From a virus: a stretch of 25,583 bases of DNA. Under the pieces are notes generated by a model, which did not search any database, was not told the DNA's origin, and worked only from the letters and a program-made list of their open reading frames with translations. Below are positions 3-24,034 of this stretch, piece by piece (position 1 is the first letter of the stretch; each line of letters opens with the position of its first letter). Both the position numbers and the translations under genes were made by a program. The stretch spans positions 1 through 25,583 of IMG/VR virus record IMGVR_UViG_3300036716_000966. One strand, given 5' to 3'.

Positions 3-3000
3 ATTGCAGGTAATGCGGGTATTAGAAGAGCCCTTAATGCTGAGGCGCAAAGAGCGATTAATAAGCTTAATGATAAGATAAAAAACAATAAGAAGAAAGC
101 TGAAAACCTTTTAGCTCCTTTTGGTGGTGGTACATGGAAAGACAATGCTGAAGGTAAACCAGAACTAACTGCTAACAAACCTCTAAACCTCGACATAGAA
201 ACTATGTCTAAACAAGGGAATTTACTTAGTAGCATAGAGAATGATGGGCTTGCCATTATAGCTCTAGAAAAACTTAAGGAAAGCTATGTTAGTAATGTTC
301 AACAGTCTGAGTTTAACCAGCAGGAACGAGAAGCATCAAAAGAATTTGAAAAGCTTAAAGCCGATAAGCTTAGAAGGTATGTACAACAGACAAGGAAAAA
401 GTTTAAAGATTTTGTAGCTACTGAAATAGAAAAACATCAGGAGGCTGTAGCGGAGGCAGATGAGGCTGAGAAAACCCGCCCACAGTATAACCTAGATAGA
501 ATACTAAAACGGGCTGTGGCTTCAGTAGCTGATTTTAGACCTGTTAATAGCTCTGAAGGTAGACTAAGCTCAGATGAAGCCGATGCTATAGTTAAAGAAT
601 ACTATCAAGCACAAGTAAGTAATGTTTCCGAGGCTTACAGTGAGGTTATATTAATAGCGCAGAGAGAAGCTGCCCGCCGCATGTATGCAGCAGAAGAAAA
701 TATTAGTTTAGCACAAGTGCCTGAAGGCTTGTTCAGCAAGGAGAGTGAGTACAAGGATATACCCGTGTTCTCACTTACGTCTGAAGATTTCTACAACGCT
801 TTTGGTAAGGAGACTGTAAAGTATGATGCTAAAGGTAAGGCTATTGGTACTACTGGTACTAGGGGCGACTACCAAACTCTGCAAAAGATGGCTAGGAAGC
901 TCGGTGTAGACCCAGAAGCTAGACTCACTAGTGGTTCTAGCGGGTATGTTCAGAACGATAAAAGTTTGAAAAACGCTACGCCAGCGGCAGGGGGTGGTCA
1001 AAGGTCTAACACAAGGGGTACGGGTGGTACAGCGATGATTAGCGACTACCGGGAAGTCGCTCGCAAAGTATGGAAGACTCTGTTAGATGTGCATCCAGAT
1101 GTGCAAGTACCCCTTACCCAGAAAGAGATTAATGAACAAGCAGATTCTGCGGAAGGTGCTAAAGTATATAAGCCAAATGATAGAGGCTTTAAGTCTAAAG
1201 CTAAACAAGTCGTAGCGCGGGCTAATAAAGCTCAGAAAATTAAAGAAGGACGTACAAGAGATTTTAATGAAGACGGCAAGGTTGTAGATAAGAAAGGTAA
1301 AGTAAAAGTTGCTAAGGGTCTACAAAACAAACCACCTAAGAATATAGGTGCTGTAGAATATGTTGCTAATCCCGGAGAGATGCCATCAGTAGAAGTCCAA
1401 ACTATTAGAGACTTAGCTTCAGACAAAATAAAAAAAGCTAGAAAAGATTATGAAGACGATGCTGAAGGTAAAGAAAAGGCTATTGAGGAAATAGAAATAG
1501 ACGCAGCTAAAGCTATTAAAGCTTTAGACATTGCCAGAGTATGGAAAGACTTTAGTAGTGGCAAGATTGACAAGGAGCGTAGAAACATTTCGCTTGACTA
1601 CATAAGGAATAAGTATACTGAGGGCTTCAGACCAGAAACCCCTCGCGCTGAAAGTATTGATGATACCCTAGATGTAGAAAGCATACCGTCTTCTTTCACT
1701 GAAGCTTATGAAAGCATACAAAATACTTTGTCAGATATTACTAAGAACCTTAATATTAAGTCAGCAGTGGATGACTCATACGATGGTATCCTTCTTAATA
1801 CTCAGCTTAAGAGTATTAAGGCTTCCATATCAGAGCTTAGTAGTAACTTAGCTTACAATGATAGACAGCAGGAAAGGCTTATTAATAAGCTTAACAAAGC
1901 CAATACCGCTGTAGAAGAAAGTATTAAGCTTCAATCAAAAGAAGCTACGCCATATGCCGTACTTGCTAGTAGTAACAAAGCTGCATCTGCAATGATTGAG
2001 GCTTTAGAGTTAGCTAACAACCCTAACCTATTTTCATCCGCACCTAAATCTACTAAGACTCAAAGGGACGCTAGCCTAGCCAGTGCAGTGGAGTCAAATA
2101 GTAACCAGCTAGAACGGCAGCGGAAAGATTCTAAGCCTGTAAAGCGCCGCAAACTTAAAGATTTAAAATATGCTGATGATAGAGGTGGAGGGTTCACCAA
2201 CCCAAAACCGGAAGGTGAGGCGACACCAGCAAAAACGCCAGATACAGCCGAACCTACTGTAGTTGAGGAAATTCCTGTTCCTGTTCCTGTAGATGAACCT
2301 ACTGTAGAACCTACTGTAGTTGAGGAAATTCCTGTTCCTGTAGATGAACCTACTGTAGAACCTACTGTAGAACCTACTGTAGAACCTACTGTAGAACCTA
2401 CTGTAGAACCTACTGTAGAACCTACTGTAGACCCAGACCCTATAGTTGAATTAGCTGACCCTGTTGATATGGAAGATGCGGCTACTGCGTTTATGCTAGA
2501 TGCTTTGGGTGGTGGTAAGTGGGTAAGAACTGACAAAGGATATACACTTAAGCTAAATGATGGTAGAGAGATACCAGTTATAAAGTCGAAAGCCAGAATA
2601 AGGGGGGAAGGGCAATTTGGGGACATGTTCGGTAGGCAGGTTACGGTGTGGAGAAACATACGTGACAACATGGGGTCTCGCACACTCAAGGAAGCTAAGT
2701 CAGCTACGATAAACGTGCTATGGAATGATGCTGGTCGTCCGAATGAATCGGCTTGGATAAAAGCTAATCAGGTAGAATCTACTGAGCCTAATCTAGATAC
2801 AGAGGAGGGTAAAATAGCCGCAGCTACTGAGGTTAAAGAACCGGAAAACCCAGTATCGAATGAGCCATCAGTTACACCTGATAATTTTCCAGCACTATCC
2901 GAGGATGAGCTACAAACCCTTATCGAGGGTTGGGATATAGATACCGAGTATCTACCAAACGAACTTGTATCATCAAAGTTGGGTGTAGAATCAGTATTAA

Positions 3001-6000
3001 GTATTCCAGAGGCAACTGAAGACTTAATTAACCGTTGGACAGATTCAGCAATTAAAAAAACAAAAACTGGAAACCTTAAACCTACCAGTATGCCATTGAG
3101 TAAGTTACTAAAAGAGGTAATAGCCACACTGCCTGACGCACACCCACATAAGATGGTATTAAAAGCAGCATTAAAAAATGTTTTATCTTACAAAGGTGGT
3201 AGCAGGGCTAAGGTAGAACTTGCATATAACGAATTTATTACCACCATGGGGCGGTATCGTATAGAAGGAAGTGGTCGAGAAACTCTTACACTAAACCTAG
3301 CTAATAATCGAAAGCCGCTTATTACTGAGGGTGTTGATAGGGACCTAGAGAGTATTGAAGCTCCTATGTCAATCTTGCAAACTCTTGTGCATGAATCAAT
3401 ACATCAGATTACTCAGCTATCAGGCACATGGAAGCCAGAGGATAAGGCGGCTATAAGAAGTATCATGGACGCTGCCAAGAAAGCATATCCTGATATAGAT
3501 AAAAACTATTCAACTAAGTACGCTTATACAAATGAATCTGAGTTTATGGCTGAATCTCTGAGCAATCCAGATTTAGCTCGCTTGCTCTTAAGTGTGTCAG
3601 TACCAGTAGAAGCCGCTGGCAAAGGTGGTATTACCGACCTACTAGCTATGGCTCTAGCTCTTGTTAAGAAGGTATTAAACGTACCTTTGGTAAATAACGA
3701 TGCGTTAACTGCTATGTACTCTATAGCTAGCCGTTCAAGTACCGATGCTGGGACTACAGCTAGTAGAGTATCTGGAGGGGTCGCTAATGATAGGCTACAA
3801 AGTAGTGCTAATGAGGGGCAAGGGGCTGAATCAGCAGATAAAAGAAGTGTTGTTGATGCAGTCAAAAATGCTAAAGGTAGCGCCTCAGACAGTGAAGCTT
3901 GGCAGAAGGTAAAAACCGCCTTTCGCCGCGTAGGTACGCTAGACCATTTGATTCGTATGAAGTCAGATGTGTTTAAGACTATGACCGCTGACGGTATTGT
4001 AGACCCGGCGGCTAGATGGTTTGAACTACAACAGTTAAAGCTCTCTGCTGCTATGCGCCACATGAAGGGTGCTAACGCGCTTGTTAGGGAGCTTAAGTCA
4101 TTGCCCGATGATGTACGCCTTGGGGTTATGACTCAAATGAAGAACATGACTATGTGGGGTATGTACCCCGGAGGTGAGCTTGGTAAGGGTAGGAACAAGC
4201 ATATAGCAATAGGGCTTGACCCAGTAGAGCAAGCGCGCCTAGAAGCTATACATAAAAAGATTACTGAAGCGGATGAAAAGCTTTCCGGTCTGAGTAAAAC
4301 TAATAAAGGTCGTACACCATCAGAACTAATTGAGTCCATGGCTGAATTTAGCAAGACCTCAAATGACCTAAAGACTTCTGCGCTGTTAAAGAGACTCACC
4401 AAGTCATTTAAGTTTAATGAGTATGGTGTTGATGAGGATATAACAGATGGCTGGTCTAAGCTACGAACGCCTGAACAAGTAGACCAGATGCTTTTCTCCA
4501 TGCCTGAGGGTATGGATGGTATAGATGACCTTGTAGAAGCGACTAAGAAACTTGTTACTGTAGGAAGGATTGAGGGTCCTTACTTCCCACTGCGTAGGTA
4601 TGGTGACTTTATAGTTAGTGGCACTAAGACTAAGGAAACAGAGTTTGAAACTTATCGGGAAGCTGAAGAATATGCTGAGAACCTTAAAGCCGAGGGTAGC
4701 ACCAATGCCCAAATGGATTCGGTAGAGATTAATGGACTAACTGTAATAGAAAAATCTCCTATATTCGCTACCCGAACAACATTACAGAAAGCTAAGGAGC
4801 TGAAGTCAAAGCTGGAGAGTGACGGCTATGATGTTTCTCCTGTCGAGAAAAAATTATCACCTGAGACTATGCTCTCTAGTGACTTAACAAAACTAGCCCA
4901 AGTCTTCATGCGTGACCTAAGCAAAGAAGACAGTACAGGTGTAACTAATCCTGATGGTACGCCTAAGAACGATACCGCTATGATGGCACGTAGGCATATA
5001 GAAGTTCAGCTACTACAGATGCTAGCTGACAATCCTGCTATGGCTAGTCAACTAAGACGTAAGGGTTATTCCGGTGTTGAAGTTGGTGATATGGAGAAGG
5101 GCTTTTCCGAGTATGCACAAACTACTGCATGGCAATTGGCAGATGCGGAGTATGTAACTGAGACCGAGGACCAGTATCGCTTGATGAAGAATCTTAGTGG
5201 TACTAAGAACAGTCCAGATACGCAAGACAGAACGATACCAGAGCAGGAAGACATAATAATGGAGCGTGGCTTGCTCTTAGAGGAGCTACAGAAGCGTGAG
5301 CTTGGTAACATAAAAGTTCGTAACTCTGGCAAATGGTCTAAGACAGTAGGTAAGCTTGGCTTTGCTTGGTTCCTAGCTAGTCCTGCGTATGCAATGATTA
5401 ACGCCACACAGCCTTGGATACTAGGCTACCCAATGCTTAAGACTAAGTATGGTAAGAACGGTGAGAAAGTGGCTTCTGCCCTCACTAATTCTTATAACGC
5501 AATAAACGGTGCTTGGGCATCTAGTATGGTTGATACTTGGGCGGGCATGAAGCCGGGGTCTAATGAAGAAGATGTATTCCAGAACATGCTAGCCGCGCTT
5601 GAGGATTACTCCAGCGACTTCAGCGCCGTGGAGCTAGTAGAAAAGCTAGCTGCATTAAACATTATTGATAGTACTTTTGTGCAAGAGCTAATGGATACTG
5701 CTGTCGGTAAAGAGAGCGACAGTAAAGGTGCTATCAAGTTACTAGATACAGTTGTAGAGAAGGCGCGAGTACTTCCTTCTTCAGTAGAAGCTGTTAACAG
5801 AATTGTTATGGCTTTAGCTACCGCTGAGTTATCGGGGTATAAAGATGGAGACTCCGTAGCTGAAGTGGCAGACATGGTTAGACTTACTCAGTTTGACTAC
5901 TCAATGATTAATCGACCCGACCTGTTTAAAGCTAATGCCTTCTTGAAAGGGGCATCTATGTTTAAGATGCATCCGCTAGGTGTATACCAGATGTACGGAT

Positions 6001-6938
6001 ACACCTTAGGTAAGGCTCCTACTGATGAGAAGTGGAGAGGTCTTGGTTACTTAACAATGACGCACACACTTGCAGCGGGTGTTGCAGGTGGCATACTTAT
6101 AGAGCCAATACGTGTAGCTATCAGGGCTGCTATGATAGCCGCTGATGGTCTTGACCTTTATGAAGATGACGAAGACTTGGAGCAAATAGCAAGAAGGTAC
6201 TCCGCCAAGATGAACATACCAACTAGAGTCTTCAACTTGGTTATGTATGGACCTATAACAGCAGCTCCATGGGTCGGTGCTAATATAAGCCTACGTGTTG
6301 GTTTGCAGCAAGGGTTTCTTAACCAGTACATGAACTTGGCTGACGGTAGAGAAGCTGAGGGTTTGCTTTATGAACTCACGGGCGCTCCGGGGAGTATCGT
6401 TAAGTCAGGGTTTAAAGCTTACGACTTAGCTAAAGAGGGGCAGTTTGGTAAGGCAGCAGGAGAAGTAATCCCAGTATCCTTCTTGCGTAACTTAACCAAA
6501 GCTGTAAACAATCTTGAGGGTGGTCCAACTGATTATTCAGGGAGACCCTTGGAAAAAGATTCTGGTACTGACTTAGATAAGGCGCTTGACTTTACTATTA
6601 AAGCTCTAGGATTCCAGCCCTACAATGAGAAAGAAGTACAGGCTGCTAGGTATTCACAGAATAAATACCAAGCGTATTGGTATGACAGAAAGATTGGTAT
6701 AATTGACGACATAGCAAGAAGCCAAGCGGGTAGTGCAGATAGAGCTAGAGCTGTATCTAAAATAAAGGAGCATAATAAAAAAGCTCCTACCTTCGCTAAG
6801 ATTAAGAAATCGTCTGAAGTTAAGTCAAAAGTACGCAGAGAAGCAGAGCGCGCACAACTTACTCGCGGCGGTATAGTAGTTAACTCACGAGAAGCTAGGG
6901 AAAGAGCAAAGCTTTTCGATACCCGTGATAATAACTAG
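3..6938 (+). CDS. Giant polyvalent virion-type protein (PLxRFG / metallopeptidase-like), 5' partial
   Basis: The reading frame is open from base 3 to the TAG at 6936-6938, so the gene starts left of the window and the ATG at 204 is probably internal. The visible part is about 2,311 residues. Order of parts: a long charged, helical, coiled-coil-like N-terminal half; a proline-rich EPTV repeat linker (2250-2429); an HExxH zinc-site motif HESIH (3390-3404) followed by NESEFMAES (3531-3557), whose Glu residues could supply a third ligand; a motif PLRRYG (4587-4604) preceded by GPYF, matching the PLxRFG signature of large polyvalent phage proteins; hydrophobic stretches near 5352-5440 and 6060-6150; and a basic C-terminus. 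Such proteins are packaged in virions of podovirus-like phages and may enter the host with the DNA; a role as ejected internal protein is inferred. The stop codon interlocks with the stop of the opposing primase-helicase gene. Confidence 0.8.
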   Translation: MAGNAGIRRALNAEAQRAINKLNDKIKNNKKKAENLLAPFGGGTWKDNAEGKPELTANKPLNLDIETMSKQGNLLSSIENDGLAIIALEKLKESYVSNVQQSEFNQQEREASKEFEKLKADKLRRYVQQTRKKFKDFVATEIEKHQEAVAEADEAEKTRPQYNLDRILKRAVASVADFRPVNSSEGRLSSDEADAIVKEYYQAQVSNVSEAYSEVILIAQREAARRMYAAEENISLAQVPEGLFSKESEYKDIPVFSLTSEDFYNAFGKETVKYDAKGKAIGTTGTRGDYQTLQKMARKLGVDPEARLTSGSSGYVQNDKSLKNATPAAGGGQRSNTRGTGGTAMISDYREVARKVWKTLLDVHPDVQVPLTQKEINEQADSAEGAKVYKPNDRGFKSKAKQVVARANKAQKIKEGRTRDFNEDGKVVDKKGKVKVAKGLQNKPPKNIGAVEYVANPGEMPSVEVQTIRDLASDKIKKARKDYEDDAEGKEKAIEEIEIDAAKAIKALDIARVWKDFSSGKIDKERRNISLDYIRNKYTEGFRPETPRAESIDDTLDVESIPSSFTEAYESIQNTLSDITKNLNIKSAVDDSYDGILLNTQLKSIKASISELSSNLAYNDRQQERLINKLNKANTAVEESIKLQSKEATPYAVLASSNKAASAMIEALELANNPNLFSSAPKSTKTQRDASLASAVESNSNQLERQRKDSKPVKRRKLKDLKYADDRGGGFTNPKPEGEATPAKTPDTAEPTVVEEIPVPVPVDEPTVEPTVVEEIPVPVDEPTVEPTVEPTVEPTVEPTVEPTVEPTVDPDPIVELADPVDMEDAATAFMLDALGGGKWVRTDKGYTLKLNDGREIPVIKSKARIRGEGQFGDMFGRQVTVWRNIRDNMGSRTLKEAKSATINVLWNDAGRPNESAWIKANQVESTEPNLDTEEGKIAAATEVKEPENPVSNEPSVTPDNFPALSEDELQTLIEGWDIDTEYLPNELVSSKLGVESVLSIPEATEDLINRWTDSAIKKTKTGNLKPTSMPLSKLLKEVIATLPDAHPHKMVLKAALKNVLSYKGGSRAKVELAYNEFITTMGRYRIEGSGRETLTLNLANNRKPLITEGVDRDLESIEAPMSILQTLVHESIHQITQLSGTWKPEDKAAIRSIMDAAKKAYPDIDKNYSTKYAYTNESEFMAESLSNPDLARLLLSVSVPVEAAGKGGITDLLAMALALVKKVLNVPLVNNDALTAMYSIASRSSTDAGTTASRVSGGVANDRLQSSANEGQGAESADKRSVVDAVKNAKGSASDSEAWQKVKTAFRRVGTLDHLIRMKSDVFKTMTADGIVDPAARWFELQQLKLSAAMRHMKGANALVRELKSLPDDVRLGVMTQMKNMTMWGMYPGGELGKGRNKHIAIGLDPVEQARLEAIHKKITEADEKLSGLSKTNKGRTPSELIESMAEFSKTSNDLKTSALLKRLTKSFKFNEYGVDEDITDGWSKLRTPEQVDQMLFSMPEGMDGIDDLVEATKKLVTVGRIEGPYFPLRRYGDFIVSGTKTKETEFETYREAEEYAENLKAEGSTNAQMDSVEINGLTVIEKSPIFATRTTLQKAKELKSKLESDGYDVSPVEKKLSPETMLSSDLTKLAQVFMRDLSKEDSTGVTNPDGTPKNDTAMMARRHIEVQLLQMLADNPAMASQLRRKGYSGVEVGDMEKGFSEYAQTTAWQLADAEYVTETEDQYRLMKNLSGTKNSPDTQDRTIPEQEDIIMERGLLLEELQKRELGNIKVRNSGKWSKTVGKLGFAWFLASPAYAMINATQPWILGYPMLKTKYGKNGEKVASALTNSYNAINGAWASSMVDTWAGMKPGSNEEDVFQNMLAALEDYSSDFSAVELVEKLAALNIIDSTFVQELMDTAVGKESDSKGAIKLLDTVVEKARVLPSSVEAVNRIVMALATAELSGYKDGDSVAEVADMVRLTQFDYSMINRPDLFKANAFLKGASMFKMHPLGVYQMYGYTLGKAPTDEKWRGLGYLTMTHTLAAGVAGGILIEPIRVAIRAAMIAADGLDLYEDDEDLEQIARRYSAKMNIPTRVFNLVMYGPITAAPWVGANISLRVGLQQGFLNQYMNLADGREAEGLLYELTGAPGSIVKSGFKAYDLAKEGQFGKAAGEVIPVSFLRNLTKAVNNLEGGPTDYSGRPLEKDSGTDLDKALDFTIKALGFQPYNEKEVQAARYSQNKYQAYWYDRKIGIIDDIARSQAGSADRARAVSKIKEHNKKAPTFAKIKKSSEVKSKVRREAERAQLTRGGIVVNSREARERAKLFDTRDNN
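2250..2429 (+). repeat. In-frame EPTV tandem repeat region
   Basis: The 12-base unit gaacctactgta, coding EPTV, is repeated seven times without change at 2346-2429. Just before it lie two copies of a longer block coding EPTVVEEIPVPV plus D, one of which has an extra PV. The region forms a rigid, acidic, proline-rich linker between the coiled-coil half and the downstream domains of the giant protein. The near-identity of the units suggests recent expansion by replication slippage. Confidence 0.9.
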
Positions 6939-15742: not shown

Positions 15743-18256
15743 ATGTCTATAAGTAAGCCAGTAGCTAGTTCAGTAGCTAGTAAAGTATCCATTGGTGTTA
15801 AAGGTGATAGTTCCAGAACAGCCTACTATCCTGAACATGCGCTACCTTGGGGTGCAGAAAATGTATTTAGGAATGCTACTCCGTTCAGTGCAGGTTTAGA
15901 AACTACCTCCGAAGCAGGATTGTTTTCTGGTTACTTCCGTATAGACAACGGTAGTCGTGACACTACGAAGTATATATTCCGGCAGACTAACAGCGCGGAC
16001 GGTAGTGGTAGCACAGGGTTCACATTCCAAACGAACGGTACTACTTCACTGCGTATGTATTTCCGTAACTACTCAGCACGTATCGACTACAACACACCTC
16101 TAGCTAACAATGATACTTGGTTTCACGTACTGTTCTTACATGACTCTGTTAACGATAGAGTTAAGCTATACGTAGATGGAGTTATGGTAGAGGATGAAAC
16201 CGCTAGTGGTGCAGGGCAAGCTGTCAATGCATACGTAGTTAAGAACTACATGAACATTATGGGTGGTGGTACAAGCGAGGATGCCTTTGATAGTGAAGCC
16301 TTGGAGTTTAAGCAAGTAGCTCTGTTCGGCTGCACCGCCGTAGATATACAGGACTTTTGGGATGCGGACTCAGCTATTGAGACTGCTGCTGTTGACTACT
16401 TTTATAATGGAAACCCAGTAGCTAACCCTAATACTTTCCCTACTAACGGTGCATGGGGTGACGTAATACCTCAGCTATATATAGGTGAGGCTAGTACAAC
16501 AATAGTTAACTACGGTATTGGCTTTGAAGGATTGTTCAAGGGTGAGCTTGAGGCATCTGGGGCATGGTCAGGTAGTGCTTTAGACCCTGCCCGAAGTCAT
16601 CCATATGATATTGCCTATAAGCCCATGGCTTTAGTAGATTCCTGTTACTTCTCATCAGGTACATGGGATACGCATGAGCTTAACGCATCGGGAAGTACTG
16701 TGTTTGAACCTCCAGTAGGATGGGCGCGGCTACATGGTGCTAACTCTAGCATGGGTTTCTTTAACACAGCCTCAAGTACACAAGAAGGTATTAAGAACAC
16801 AAGCATAGACATAGCTGGTGACATACCAATCCATATTAAGATACGTACCAATAACTACCATGCTAGTGACAACTTTGAGATAAGACTCTACAACGTGGAC
16901 AACGTAGCAAACTACTGCAAGTTTCAGTTCAGTCAGGTTGATGGTGTAAATGCGGGCGTGCAAACCCTAGTAGTACTACCTTCGTTAGCTGCTGTTGCAA
17001 CTACCAATGGTGGTACGCTTGCTGGTGGTAGTGGTATGGTTGACTCGTCTAGTGAGATAGCACAGGTAGGTACAGGATTTGACCCAGCTAGCAACATAAC
17101 CCGCATAGACTTTTTAGTAGACGGGTTCACTGGCTATCAATCTTCTACAGGTACTCCTGCTGACCCTAAGGCACAGATACTAGAAGTAGCTCAGGGCTAC
17201 AACCACACACCTGTTATGTTTATTACTCAGGATGATGGGCGTAGTAACCTAGTTACTGAAACTTACAACGGTGATAACTTTATAGATTACCTAACAGCCA
17301 ATAACCTAATAGGCGGGGTTAACCTAATTGGTGATGAAGTAGAGCAACGATTCTCAGACGCACAGTACGGAGAAGTATTCCCAATACAAGAGATAGCCCG
17401 GCATACTGCGTACAGCCTAACTACCAAGTGCCAATTCTCTTATGATGTTTCTGTAGATACTACTGCTTGGAACTTTGGTGAGGATTTCCACAGCGCCGAT
17501 GGGCTAAGACGTATGCAGCATGTAGGATTTACTACTGACTCTAATGGCGTAGTTACCCAGTGTCTGTTCTATTTAGATAGTGGCTACGCAGACTTTGTTG
17601 AGGGTGACGTAGTAACAGGTCAGACTACAGGGTGTGTTATTACTATTAACTCAGCAAAACAAACTACTACGCAAGCACAGTACGAGCAGGAGTTAGCGCG
17701 GCAGAAGACTCTAATAGAACAGCACTCGTCAGAAATAGGTGTTGCTATAGCAAGGGACTCTCTACAAGAATTTGTATATGCTGAGGGTGGTTACAGGAAT
17801 AACGCACAGGTTGCCAATGCTATCCGCAATGCGCTGACCAGTGTAGGTGTTGTCTCCGGTCGTAGTACAGTAGGTATCGGTACACAGATTGTACCTGCCT
17901 CAGACGTAGCAGTGTACGACACAGGGTTAGGTGCTGAACACTACGCACTACCCGCAGTAGGCGTAGAAAGCCCAACGCGCTTCGATTCTTACACTGATAT
18001 AGTTGATGGCTACTTAGAAGAAGTAGCGCGGCATGGTGGGATGCACTGGCTCTACTACCATAGTGTAGGTGCAGTGGGTACTACTCGTGGTAGCCCAAGT
18101 ACTAACATACCTATAGATGAACTGTTTGCCATAGCTGATAAGATGGCAGACATGCAGCAGAAGTCTTGCGCAAAGTCTATGCGTATATCCCAGTACCACG
18201 AGCATATAAACACTAAGATTCCAGAGGCTAGTACGTTATTCAGAGAGGACTTTTAG
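15743..18256 (+). CDS. Tailspike/tail-fibre-like protein with LamG-type and deacetylase-like domains
   Basis: 837 residues, with AGGTG just before the ATG. Residues about 55-210 look like a concanavalin/LamG-type beta-sandwich (typical strand pattern around NDTWFHVLFLHD and VKLYVDGV, residues 123-147). The middle part is beta-rich. The C-terminal third has features reminiscent of the NodB/polysaccharide deacetylase fold: ITQDDGRSN (Asp497, Asp498), AEGGYRNN (680-687) and WLYYHSVG with His773. The canonical HxxxH metal motif is not evident, so an enzyme activity is uncertain. The likely role is receptor binding or surface glycan modification on the virion. It is the only plus-strand gene between two minus-strand blocks, and its stop interlocks with the stop of the opposing gene. 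No tail-attachment domain or chaperone is recognised. Confidence 0.65.
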   Translation: MSISKPVASSVASKVSIGVKGDSSRTAYYPEHALPWGAENVFRNATPFSAGLETTSEAGLFSGYFRIDNGSRDTTKYIFRQTNSADGSGSTGFTFQTNGTTSLRMYFRNYSARIDYNTPLANNDTWFHVLFLHDSVNDRVKLYVDGVMVEDETASGAGQAVNAYVVKNYMNIMGGGTSEDAFDSEALEFKQVALFGCTAVDIQDFWDADSAIETAAVDYFYNGNPVANPNTFPTNGAWGDVIPQLYIGEASTTIVNYGIGFEGLFKGELEASGAWSGSALDPARSHPYDIAYKPMALVDSCYFSSGTWDTHELNASGSTVFEPPVGWARLHGANSSMGFFNTASSTQEGIKNTSIDIAGDIPIHIKIRTNNYHASDNFEIRLYNVDNVANYCKFQFSQVDGVNAGVQTLVVLPSLAAVATTNGGTLAGGSGMVDSSSEIAQVGTGFDPASNITRIDFLVDGFTGYQSSTGTPADPKAQILEVAQGYNHTPVMFITQDDGRSNLVTETYNGDNFIDYLTANNLIGGVNLIGDEVEQRFSDAQYGEVFPIQEIARHTAYSLTTKCQFSYDVSVDTTAWNFGEDFHSADGLRRMQHVGFTTDSNGVVTQCLFYLDSGYADFVEGDVVTGQTTGCVITINSAKQTTTQAQYEQELARQKTLIEQHSSEIGVAIARDSLQEFVYAEGGYRNNAQVANAIRNALTSVGVVSGRSTVGIGTQIVPASDVAVYDTGLGAEHYALPAVGVESPTRFDSYTDIVDGYLEEVARHGGMHWLYYHSVGAVGTTRGSPSTNIPIDELFAIADKMADMQQKSCAKSMRISQYHEHINTKIPEASTLFREDF

Positions 18257-20506: not shown

Positions 20507-21646
20507 TTAATCCATAGTCATGTGGAAGGTCTGCCCATATGGGCATTCTTTTTTTGTCGTGCTTACTACTATGACAGGGTAGGCAGGGGGCTTATCCCAT
20601 TGTGTGTACCCATCCGTTAAGATTATAAGTACATCAGGAGTTATGGCTTCCTCATCTAGTACGCGGTATATGTCGGGCAGATAAGTGCCGCCACCACCCT
20701 CTGGTTGATACTCCTCAATGTCACACACCTCCTCCATAGTGTGCGGCGGATAGGCTTTAGTATCACACGAACCTACTTGCAGCAGCTCAGGCGTTGCCTC
20801 CTGTAGTATGCCCGCTGTCTCAGATAGGAAGTGCTTAAGTTCATCCTCACCTATAGAACCTGACGTATCTATGTACACACATATATGCCCTGTCTGATAC
20901 CCAGTAGTTCCGGGGAAGTATATGTGTGGGGGCATAGATATTCGTCTGCGGTTAGGGCGTTGCCATGTAGATGAATCCCGCCCTGCCTTAGCACTAATCT
21001 CCATCATTAGTTTCTCTGACCACTTAATCTGTGGCTCAAGTAACTCGTCCACCATGCGTTTCATACTAGCTGGCAGTTTACCAACAGCCTTAGCAGCAGT
21101 AGCCGCACCAGCGAGCGCACGCTTGACCTTAGCATCATCAGGTGTGGTCGATTCATCACCTTCCTTATGGTCATCGAAGCTATTCTGGTCATCGTTATCC
21201 TCGTCCTTTAACTGTACGTACACATCATCAGCTAACATATCACCAGTGAACTTAGGGTGATACAAACCACCTACAGGCAGTGAACCTATCTTGTCTGCAT
21301 CTAGCGTGTGGTTAATGATGTAGTCAGTAGCACGATTCCACCGCATAGGTGAGAACACCTTCATGTCTGGACCGAAGCCACGCTCGTTGTACAGCCTTAG
21401 CCTAGGGCAGTGCTGGAACACAACGTGCAGTACCTCATGCGCCAGTACAAATATGCGCTCCTCTACATCCTTCAGCTCGTTCTTAAAGAACTTAGGGTTA
21501 ATGAATAACTTCTTACCATCAGTCGCAGCAGTTGGTACTGCGTCCGTCTCCTCTATAGTAAGCAAGTCCATAAGTAACACAGCATAGAATGGCTGTGACG
21601 ATATGAGGCGTGACATAGCCTCGGTTAACTCATAGCTTTTAGCCAT
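20507..21646 (-). CDS. VWA-domain putative metallopeptidase (DUF2201-like)
   Basis: 379 residues in two parts. The N-terminal part carries an HExxH zinc-site motif in VLAHEVLHVVFQH (His70, Glu71, His74). The C-terminal part is a VWA fold with a complete metal-ion-dependent adhesion site: DTSGS (260-264), Thr321 in GGGGTYLPD, and TDG (344-346). This two-domain form matches the bacterial and phage family of VWA-like putative metal-dependent peptidases. It follows a MoxR-like ATPase and a helical protein on the same strand, an arrangement like CobS/CobT-type or MoxR-VWA pairs, in which the ATPase remodels a target presented by the VWA protein. AAGGAG lies seven bases before the ATG. Protease activity is unproven. 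Confidence 0.85.
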   Translation of the reverse strand: MAKSYELTEAMSRLISSQPFYAVLLMDLLTIEETDAVPTAATDGKKLFINPKFFKNELKDVEERIFVLAHEVLHVVFQHCPRLRLYNERGFGPDMKVFSPMRWNRATDYIINHTLDADKIGSLPVGGLYHPKFTGDMLADDVYVQLKDEDNDDQNSFDDHKEGDESTTPDDAKVKRALAGAATAAKAVGKLPASMKRMVDELLEPQIKWSEKLMMEISAKAGRDSSTWQRPNRRRISMPPHIYFPGTTGYQTGHICVYIDTSGSIGEDELKHFLSETAGILQEATPELLQVGSCDTKAYPPHTMEEVCDIEEYQPEGGGGTYLPDIYRVLDEEAITPDVLIILTDGYTQWDKPPAYPVIVVSTTKKECPYGQTFHMTMD

Positions 21647-21679
21647 GATAACTCTCCTTTAATTATCAATGGGATTAAA

Positions 21680-21702
21680 ACTTCATGCTCATAACATGAA
21701 GT
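21680..21702 (-). terminator. Weak terminator-like hairpin at end of the helical triad gene
   Basis: On the minus strand ACTTCATG and CATGAAGT pair over a seven-base loop, followed by TTTTAA. The stem overlaps the last codons and stop of the upstream gene. Stem G+C is low (3 of 8), so termination would be partial at best. The VWA gene's ribosome site follows about 20 bases later. Confidence 0.4.
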
Positions 21703-22900
21703 CATCAGGGTTAAAGTCTAACGATGATACTCCTCCGTGTGTCTCCTCTTTCTCTACTCTTTCAGGTACTGGTGCTACGTCCTCTATGTCTACTTGCAAG
21801 TGCGCATCACCATCAGGCATTGAACCACCCTCACTCGTGGGTATCTTGCGTTCAATCGCCTGTGACATATCCAGCTCCTGCTCAGTAGGTGTAACATCTA
21901 GCACGCTAAGTACATCAGCAGTGTCGTCAACCTCTGGTGAGGGTGTTGGCGCGGCTACAGTAGGTACTATCTCAGAAGGTAAAGCCTCACCCTTAAGCAT
22001 AGCTATAGCTCGGCTGGCTTTCGTAGCTACCTCAGCACTAAGCGCGGCGTTGCCCTTGAACACAGACACATCAGTATACTTAGATGTTATCTTGTCAATG
22101 ACATACATAGCGTGACCTTCCAGTGCCTTATCTGTACTAGAACCTATAGCACCTAACAGCCCAGCCTCACGCGCTACGTTACTAAGCATCGTATTAAACA
22201 TACGAGTCTTACCACCTTCAGCTTCCTTGGTAAGCTGCACTACCATCACATTAAGCTTGGCTATAGTACGCTCTACTGCGTCATTCTTTGCGTTGTCTAG
22301 CTGCTTAGTCATACGTGCGGCGTACATACTCTGTAAACCCTCGACTATCTTGGCTGGCATAGCCATGCGTGAGAAGTCAGAGTCCGCTGGTACTGGTGAC
22401 ATACTCATGGTCACATCAAAGTATCGCTTGAACTCGTCAGGTGTAGGGTACTCTGCCAATGGCGGAGCCATGCTACCCATCCTAGAACGTGCGTCTGCGA
22501 TAATCTGGGGTAACTCATTCGCTACCTCATCACGCAGTAACTTCGCTGCATCCTTACGCTTCTGAAACTCCCGAAGGAAGTTAAGGCTATCAGTTGTAGG
22601 TAACAGCCTGTCCCCTTGCGCACCACCAGCAGTATCACTTACCCATGGTAGGGTGTACATATACAGAAAGTTACGCATAGTATTGTAGGAAGATGCAACA
22701 GCCTTAATGCGCTTGTTATTATCTCCGAACATATTACGTACATACTTACCAGTAGATGCACCCGCACCCTTAGCCTGATGCACCTCGTCAGATATGGTGC
22801 GGTCAACCCGCTGTCCACCATAGGTACGCACGCTTACATTAGCCAGCATATAGTTGGCGGTTACTAGAGTGCTTACTTCACTTAAGTTTTCATTACTCAT
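21689..22900 (-). CDS. Helical protein of the MoxR-VWA module (DUF3150-like)
   Basis: 403 residues, mostly alpha-helical to about residue 310, then a low-complexity acidic Pro-rich tail ending LDFNPDDFML. The N-terminal region has a conserved-looking pattern (DRTISDEVHQAKG, YNTMRNFLYMYTLPW, GDRLLPTTDSLNFL) reminiscent of DUF3150 proteins encoded beside MoxR and VWA genes; this family call is tentative. It sits between the AAA+ and VWA/metallopeptidase genes and probably acts as their third component or adaptor. AAGGAG lies upstream of the ATG, preceded by a GC-rich hairpin. Confidence 0.65.
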   Translation of the reverse strand: MSNENLSEVSTLVTANYMLANVSVRTYGGQRVDRTISDEVHQAKGAGASTGKYVRNMFGDNNKRIKAVASSYNTMRNFLYMYTLPWVSDTAGGAQGDRLLPTTDSLNFLREFQKRKDAAKLLRDEVANELPQIIADARSRMGSMAPPLAEYPTPDEFKRYFDVTMSMSPVPADSDFSRMAMPAKIVEGLQSMYAARMTKQLDNAKNDAVERTIAKLNVMVVQLTKEAEGGKTRMFNTMLSNVAREAGLLGAIGSSTDKALEGHAMYVIDKITSKYTDVSVFKGNAALSAEVATKASRAIAMLKGEALPSEIVPTVAAPTPSPEVDDTADVLSVLDVTPTEQELDMSQAIERKIPTSEGGSMPDGDAHLQVDIEDVAPVPERVEKEETHGGVSSLDFNPDDFML

Positions 22901-22916
22901 GTCGTTCTCCTTAGTT

Positions 22917-22943
22917 ACCCCCTACCCGAAAAGGTAGGGGGGT
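22917..22943 (-). other. GC-rich intercistronic stem-loop
   Basis: ACCCCCTACC (22917-22926) pairs with GGTAGGGGG (22933-22941) over a six-base loop, giving a 9-10 bp stem just after the MoxR-like gene. On the minus strand no U-tract follows; instead the AAGGAG of the next gene begins five bases downstream. This fits an RNA-processing or mRNA-stabilising element better than an intrinsic terminator. Confidence 0.6.
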
Positions 22944-22951
22944 GTTGCTTC

Positions 22952-24034
22952 CTAGCGTAGAGTCGCGGCTACTAACGCTCTGTTCTTAGCTATCCAATCC
23001 CCTAGGGCAGGGGCATTAAGTAGTGTGCCATTGGTCTTGTTGATAAACGCTACTGCTGCGGATGTTTGAATCTCCTTAGGCAGTCGCTCAACGTAGTCCC
23101 AGAGCTGACTAACATTATCGGCATCAACATGATGCACACAGTTCTGCATCACCATATACACAGCATCTAACCTACCATCAGAGGGTAACTTAGCTTGCTT
23201 AGGGCTAGCTATAATCTCCTCAATCGTAGGTAGCTCGTCCTTAACAGACAGGAACGAGAACATATTAGCTGCCGCACCCTCACCTATGTATCCAGCAATA
23301 GTTTCCTGCGGGATTACACCAGTCTGGATGTTGTTAATGTCACCACCACTGGCTGCTGTCAACCAGTTCCATGCAAAGGTGTAAGACCTAGGCGTGCAGA
23401 AAGGTCGTGCCTCTTTAGGTACTTCAACAGCAAACGCGCCAGCCTGTTGCTTGGCGAACGCCACACCATAGGGATGCATACCAGTACGTTCCCAGTATGA
23501 AGTGTAGTCCTCCATGTTGAAGTCCAATTCGACTATGCACTCACGGTTAATGCTGTGCATCATGGGCTTGCCCGCACCAGACTTATCAGCCTGTCTGTTA
23601 GACAATGCTACTACCCACCAACCCTCAGGTAACTTGTAGTCTCCGAACCTACGCTCAAGCGTCACCATGTTAGCTGCCTTATTGGTAAGGTTATCCGCTG
23701 CGTTCTTCTCCTCAAGAACGATGATGCCACGGGGATGCGCATCCAGATATTGCTTAGTAGGCATGAGTCCTGACCGTGTGAAGATAGATGTGGCGTTACC
23801 TTCTGCGTCCTTGGTAGGGATACAGAACCCACGGAAATCCACAGCATCAATGGACGGCATATCTATAATGACAACACCGAAGTCCTCACCGTAGTGCTTA
23901 CTCAGTACCTCAGGAAACACATTACGTGCAACGTCAGACTTACCTCCCCCCGGCGGACCCATTATGTGCAGGGTTTGTCGGGTTTCATATGAAGGTATGA
24001 TGAACTCCTTGTTTTCCAAGTGTGATATTTTCAT
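22952..24034 (-). CDS. MoxR-like AAA+ ATPase
   Basis: 360 residues with Walker A GPPGGGKS (26-33), Walker B GIIVLEEK (Glu108/Glu109), and a sensor-1 type LSNR (Asn136), in the arrangement of MoxR/AAA_5 ATPases. These form hexamers that remodel proteins or load metals together with VWA partners. The start ATG has AAGGA eight bases upstream. It is the first gene of the triad, followed by the helical protein and the HExxH+VWA protein. Phage homologues are sometimes labelled CobS, but no cobalamin genes are present here, so a chelatase role is not supported. Confidence 0.88.
   Translation of the reverse strand: MKISHLENKEFIIPSYETRQTLHIMGPPGGGKSDVARNVFPEVLSKHYGEDFGVVIIDMPSIDAVDFRGFCIPTKDAEGNATSIFTRSGLMPTKQYLDAHPRGIIVLEEKNAADNLTNKAANMVTLERRFGDYKLPEGWWVVALSNRQADKSGAGKPMMHSINRECIVELDFNMEDYTSYWERTGMHPYGVAFAKQQAGAFAVEVPKEARPFCTPRSYTFAWNWLTAASGGDINNIQTGVIPQETIAGYIGEGAAANMFSFLSVKDELPTIEEIIASPKQAKLPSDGRLDAVYMVMQNCVHHVDADNVSQLWDYVERLPKEIQTSAAVAFINKTNGTLLNAPALGDWIAKNRALVAATLR

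Follow-up and report, generated by a model that had tools for sequence, protein, structure and literature searches.

Three adjacent genes at positions 20,507 to 24,034 of the IMG/VR virus record IMGVR_UViG_3300036716_000966 encode a MoxR-type AAA+ ATPase, a predicted helical protein assigned to the DUF3150 family and a DUF2201 protein in which a zincin-like domain is joined to a VWA domain. The whole record, a 25,583-base fragment (25.6 kb), is referred to here as the window. All three genes lie on the minus strand (24034–20507), as the initial annotation had described, and their recurrent same-strand linkage in other elements supports its view of them as a three-part module. Judged from sequence, the trio may constitute one ATP-driven machine for protein remodelling and proteolysis, guided by an adaptor and acting on DNA-processing complexes, a reading held here with a little less than even confidence.

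The DUF2201 protein (379 amino acids; 20507..21646) scores 127.5 bits against the putative metallopeptidase domain PF13203 (cut-off 23.2; 9.8e-37) in its N-terminal part, and 64.1 bits against the VWA-like domain PF09967 (cut-off 26.4; 1.8e-17) in its C-terminal part. Relatives were taken from annotated phages and from environmental contigs, the loci being picked by sequence patterns; the scan of IMG/VR with the DUF2201 protein and with the helical protein, together with the annotated phages, gave 40 dereplicated DUF2201 representatives at 70% identity. H70, E71, H74, H79, N104, D108, N112 and W209 are invariant in all 40, and so are D260, S262, S264, T321 and D345 of the metal-ion-dependent adhesion site (MIDAS). 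The codons of the HExxH zinc site (residues 70–79, HEVLHVVFQH) occupy 21410..21439 and those of the MIDAS DxSxS motif (residues 260–264) occupy 20855..20869, both on the minus strand. The invariance of T42-D43-G44 arises partly by selection, as these residues were in the search pattern; the remaining invariant residues lie outside it. A structure model with a predicted local distance difference test (pLDDT) score of 84 matches VWA structures and the MIDAS domain of Rea1. The earlier claim that an HExxH site is joined to a complete VWA metal site is therefore borne out, both Pfam domains being well over their cut-offs, and no degeneration of the zinc site was found across the 40 relatives. D108 and H79 are both candidates for the third zinc ligand, and these alignments do not distinguish between them. 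Since the catalytic glutamate is invariant, limited proteolysis is the likeliest use of the extra zincin domain. No HNH nuclease domain was found in the DUF2201 protein, in which the DUF2201 domains alone exceed the Pfam cut-offs. The label “HNH endonuclease” that is carried by PHROG 1314 and by many RefSeq phage records of this metallopeptidase-VWA protein, such as N4 gp25 (NC_008720), appears from the sequence to be an annotation error.

The ATPase (360 amino acids; 22952..24034, minus strand) matches the PHROG 1297 ATPase (3e-55). When its family profile was compared with the PDB, Midasin was the best match (3e-33), and NorQ, RavA and CbbQ were also found. By its profile and motifs, the protein is placed in the MoxR clade, closest to the helix-2-insert/MoxR families, with the motifs for ATP binding and hydrolysis present. 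Walker A (GPPGGGKS, residues 26–33) and the Walker B glutamates E108 and E109 stand where they had been placed from the window sequence. Walker B reads EE in the window versus DE in most relatives, D being usual at position 108 in 35 relatives; E109 is invariant in seven phage relatives. G29, K32, N146 and R164 are invariant in the 35 relatives and G31 nearly so; N146 corresponds to a sensor-1-like residue and R164 is a candidate arginine finger. By itself the window protein stays below every Pfam cut-off, and among the 35 relatives AAA_5 is matched by 22 and AAA_3 by 12.

The third protein (403 amino acids; 21689..22900, minus strand) is assigned to DUF3150 on the basis of its family profile and predicted fold. 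PF11348 (DUF3150) is matched by 12 of its 27 relatives (best 2.7e-6), and two bacterial homologues exceed the cut-off of 24.9 bits. The assignment that had been put forward for checking is right at the level of the family, though the window protein itself has no match at the Pfam cut-off. The structure model (pLDDT 80) is mostly helical, with a core (residues ~1–305) that is mostly above 90, a disordered tail (~310–403) and low confidence from about residue 334. In fold it resembles a viral DUF3150 protein, at a template modelling (TM) score of 0.77. A fold search of the model against the PDB gave nothing at E ≤ 0.001; its matches to spike proteins (TM about 0.1) are meaningless. The acidic tail described earlier is present here along with the predicted helicity, but as a family feature it was rejected, since among the aligned phage members only the window protein and its nearest relative (L008) have it. 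The C-termini of these two (DFNPDDFML and DFDPDDFLS, respectively) loosely resemble the acidic-hydrophobic tails of SSB. In plasmid-type DUF3150 proteins (L183, L187, L192, L195 and L198) an aromatic tip (FYF, YFF, SFF, FLF, FWF) often ends a long linker. Such C-terminal tips could be docking peptides. D33 was considered as a MIDAS ligand; it is invariant in 29 of 29 informative phage-type members and by eye is unmatched in the plasmid type, and it is kept as a lead only.

The genes are closely spaced, with gaps of 51 bp between the MoxR and helical genes and 42 bp between the helical and DUF2201 genes, and an AAGGA-type Shine-Dalgarno site precedes each of them. Compared with L008, the ratio of nonsynonymous to synonymous substitution rates (dN/dS) is 0.11 for MoxR, 0.21 for the helical protein and 0.11 for DUF2201, which indicates purifying selection on all three. 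Co-occurrence is conserved in related phages. A co-directional MoxR gene stands upstream of DUF2201 in 39 of the 40 loci, including every one of the 34 whose upstream sequence is longer than 4 kb; the sole locus that lacks it has just 840 bp upstream. DUF3150 relatives were found in 21 of the 40. The usual order is MoxR-DUF3150-DUF2201; MoxR-DUF2201-DUF3150 occurs in one lineage (L013–L028) and in Chitinophaga, and DUF3150-MoxR-DUF2201 in Aurantimonas. As the adjacency outlasts these changes of order, the three genes are probably functionally linked rather than adjacent by inertia. On the DUF2201 tree, the presence of DUF3150 requires about 10 changes (shuffled mean 24), at least four being forced by the starred branches, while MoxR and DUF2201 stay paired. 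Because DUF3150 is gained and lost independently of a persisting pair, it may act as a substrate adaptor. The two-gene form predominates in cultured phages, where DUF2201 was found in 493 records but DUF3150 in only three closely matching ones.

The pair has been described before. A MoxR protein and a metallopeptidase-vWA protein were reported in group 2.2 jumbo phages (PMC7824862), and gp24/gp25 of phage N4 are the same pair; the N4 genes, along with a vWFA gene, count among the conserved or core genes of N4-like phages (PMC2784036, PMC10783043). Like the window genes, the jumbo-phage and N4 pairs combine PHROG 1297 with PHROG 1314/DUF2201 as neighbouring genes of one strand and occur in lytic phages; unlike the window, they are without DUF3150. 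In N4 the two genes are 167 bp apart and lie upstream of helicase, polymerase and exonuclease genes. The proteins encoded between the two genes in N4-type phages were considered as hidden DUF3150 members, and no profile match was found.

For the jumbo-phage pair a role in virion assembly was proposed (PMC7824862), by analogy with a MoxR-VWA pair that Acidianus two-tailed virus requires for its tail. Applied to the window, this would mean a chaperone-protease for virion assembly or maturation: MoxR and the VWA protein would help to put a structural complex together, and virion proteins would be trimmed by the zincin domain. Such a role is considered unlikely, as the trio is found in the early or replication regions of the relatives examined, co-directional with polA, exonuclease and helicase genes, and a homologous trio resides on conjugative plasmids, which make no virion. 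In the window, the minus strand encodes a family-A DNA polymerase, a PDDEXK exonuclease, a Holliday-junction-resolvase-like protein, an SNF2-type helicase and a primase/helicase with DUF927, and the trio stands upstream of this block on the same strand. On the downstream side of the 40 loci, homologues of the window genes include polA (20 loci), the exonuclease (15), the Holliday-junction-resolvase-like gene (10) and the helicase (6). A DNA-processing substrate is tentatively suggested because the trio lies beside polA, exonuclease and helicase genes in phages and beside ssb, bet and exo genes in plasmids, rather than beside virion genes.

The module had been described as a phage machine. It does belong to phages, but not exclusively, for conjugative plasmids carry a homologous trio. 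PF11348 exceeds its cut-off in eight of 398 genomes from a single phylum, the one to which a Caballeronia genome belongs. Each of the seven intact bacterial DUF3150 loci is accompanied, at a distance of no more than about 12 kb, by an AAA+ gene with a Walker A motif and by a VWA gene. An exact HExxH is present in six of the seven VWA proteins; the DUF3150-linked VWA protein at L188 (875–2665) instead reads HEIVCH, and its zinc site may be degenerate or shifted. DUF3150 was found in 1,168 plasmids, 978 of which are predicted to be conjugative. The gene order is AAA+-x-ssb-bet-exo-DUF3150-VWA in IncC plasmids, ssb-bet-exo-AAA+-x-DUF3150-x-VWA in a Vibrio plasmid and ssb-recT-exo-x-MoxR-DUF3150-VWA in Rts1; in pCAR1 the order is AAA+-DUF3150-NorD, and ssb-recT stands at a distance of about 10 kb. 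Comparison with hhalign supports a common origin of the DUF3150 proteins of phages and plasmids (94%, E 9.7e-8) and likewise of their zincin domains (82%, E 1e-5), which have a TDG motif, HExxH and a downstream acidic motif in common. In seven zincin-VWA proteins of the plasmid or integrative-element type, H60, E61, H64, E90 and D91 are invariant, as is the MIDAS; D108 of the window DUF2201 corresponds to D91 in the profile alignment. In Burkholderia cenocepacia pBcp895-1 (L193, 2628–8215), window-type MoxR and DUF2201 genes, separated from each other by an IS21 element, immediately precede type IV secretion genes.

An operon of this kind was noted in pCAR1 (IncP-7), where ORF100–103, including MoxR and VWA genes, were reported as conserved in R478, Rts1, SXT and R391 and a role in transfer was suggested; the available part of that report names neither DUF3150, nor a peptidase, nor a link to phages (PMC2642839). 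ORF101–103 and the corresponding operon in those elements hold AAA+ (MoxR), DUF3150 and VWA genes together and are homologous to the phage trio. They differ from it in that the AAA+ protein is of the CbbQ/NorQ type, the VWA protein is of the CobT/NorD type, and the genes lie near ssb/recT and transfer genes. A search of the open-access literature found no paper that names DUF3150 or COG3864 and no published description of DUF3150 as a third part or of the connection between phages and plasmids; such an absence is no proof of novelty.

The plasmid versions match the Pfam models CbbQ_C and CobT, and the VWA protein of pCAR1 is annotated as NorD. This would fit the insertion of a metallo-cofactor or the activation of an enzyme, as by CobS-CobT, NorQ-NorD and CbbQ-CbbO, on a metalloenzyme of the phage or plasmid, with HExxH handling the metal instead of acting on peptide bonds. 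That explanation seems improbable: in the window and in the loci examined, the neighbours of the trio include neither a CobN/BchH-like large subunit nor any obvious metalloenzyme, and the HExxH glutamate is invariant, as catalysis would predict. The initial annotation had argued against a chelatase from the lack of cobalamin and chlorophyll genes. None was seen in the window, nor was a CobN/BchH-like large subunit, but in a fragment of 25.6 kb this is weak evidence.

A further explanation is a conflict module that would put a host defence or a rival element out of action; DUF3150 would then be its sensor or its adaptor for the target. The trio resembles the published MoxR-vWA ternary conflict systems in having MoxR, a VWA co-chaperone and a third protein, and some of their VWA proteins also have peptidase domains (PMC7159879). 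In those systems the third part, which can act as a sensor, is VMAP, iSTAND, FtsH or a beta-propeller and the effectors are variable; in the window it is DUF3150. Carriage by phages and plasmids and the patchy distribution of DUF3150 would fit a common need to overcome hosts. No convincing match to VMAP, iSTAND, FtsH or a beta-propeller was found with Pfam or PADLOC, PADLOC gave no matches for the trio and four further window genes, and the catalytic residues are invariant with no sign of effector swapping. The link to conflict systems drawn earlier thus stands by analogy only, and a conflict role is given a low probability. NCBIfam gave nothing informative for the trio, and PDB sequence searches with the single proteins returned nothing relevant.

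How an adaptor-guided remodelling and proteolysis machine might work can be outlined from known MoxR-VWA systems, in which the VWA domain holds a ligand in a metal-dependent manner and the ring remodels it using ATP (PMC7159879). By comparison with Midasin/Rea1, NorQ-NorD and RavA-ViaA, MoxR would form a ring on which the VWA domain docks. The likeness to Midasin and NorQ is seen in the AAA+ profile and, for Rea1, in the match of the DUF2201 VWA model to its MIDAS domain; Midasin differs in being a single very large polypeptide, whose task is the removal of ribosome assembly factors, and in having no zincin domain. An acidic ligand would be gripped by the metal site of the VWA domain; ATP hydrolysis would then pull or distort the captured protein, which the zincin domain might cut at a limited site. 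The role of DUF3150 would be to supply the VWA/zincin protein with one particular substrate; more speculatively, this could be a complex that replicates, repairs or recombines DNA and belongs either to the host or to the element.

Several points weigh against this reading. DUF3150 is missing from about half of the phage loci and from N4, and it is therefore not obligatory. HExxH could be structural or serve in metal handling. Neighbouring genes point to a substrate only indirectly, and the early regions of phages gather many unrelated genes. The available part of a list of 32 conjugation genes of Rts1 contains no recognisable genes of the module (PMC10838148). In Rts1, the zincin-VWA gene is broken by IS2 (L195, 19030–22192), which sets the HExxH part (224 amino acids) apart from the VWA part, and so the Rts1 deletion data are uninformative as a functional test.

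Other features of the window were also observed. Just before the ribosome-binding site of the DUF3150 gene lies a predicted intercistronic RNA hairpin (22918..22941, minus strand; -19.7 kcal/mol, z -2.06); L008 has a hairpin in the matching place (about 5951–5976) with a partly different stem. An 837-amino-acid open reading frame with a laminin-G/concanavalin-like domain (15743–18256, plus strand) lies on the opposite strand within the minus-strand replication block. Another of 2244 amino acids (204–6938, plus strand) contains a stretch of PT-type repeats, and its C-terminus matches PHROG 37402 (function unknown).

It is possible, if rather doubtful, that phages, conjugative plasmids and integrative elements have in common a ternary machine of MoxR, a DUF3150 adaptor and a zincin-VWA protein, in which substrates unfolded at the expense of ATP are passed to a site-specific metallopeptidase, the element profiting from the resulting remodelling of DNA-processing complexes. 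Hitherto, no function had been assigned to a core gene of N4-like phages (gp25) or to a conserved block of IncC resistance plasmids and related elements. As versions of one three-part module, these separate “hypothetical protein” puzzles would become one testable question, for which phage N4 in E. coli K-12 and pCAR1 in Pseudomonas putida KT2440 offer laboratory models.

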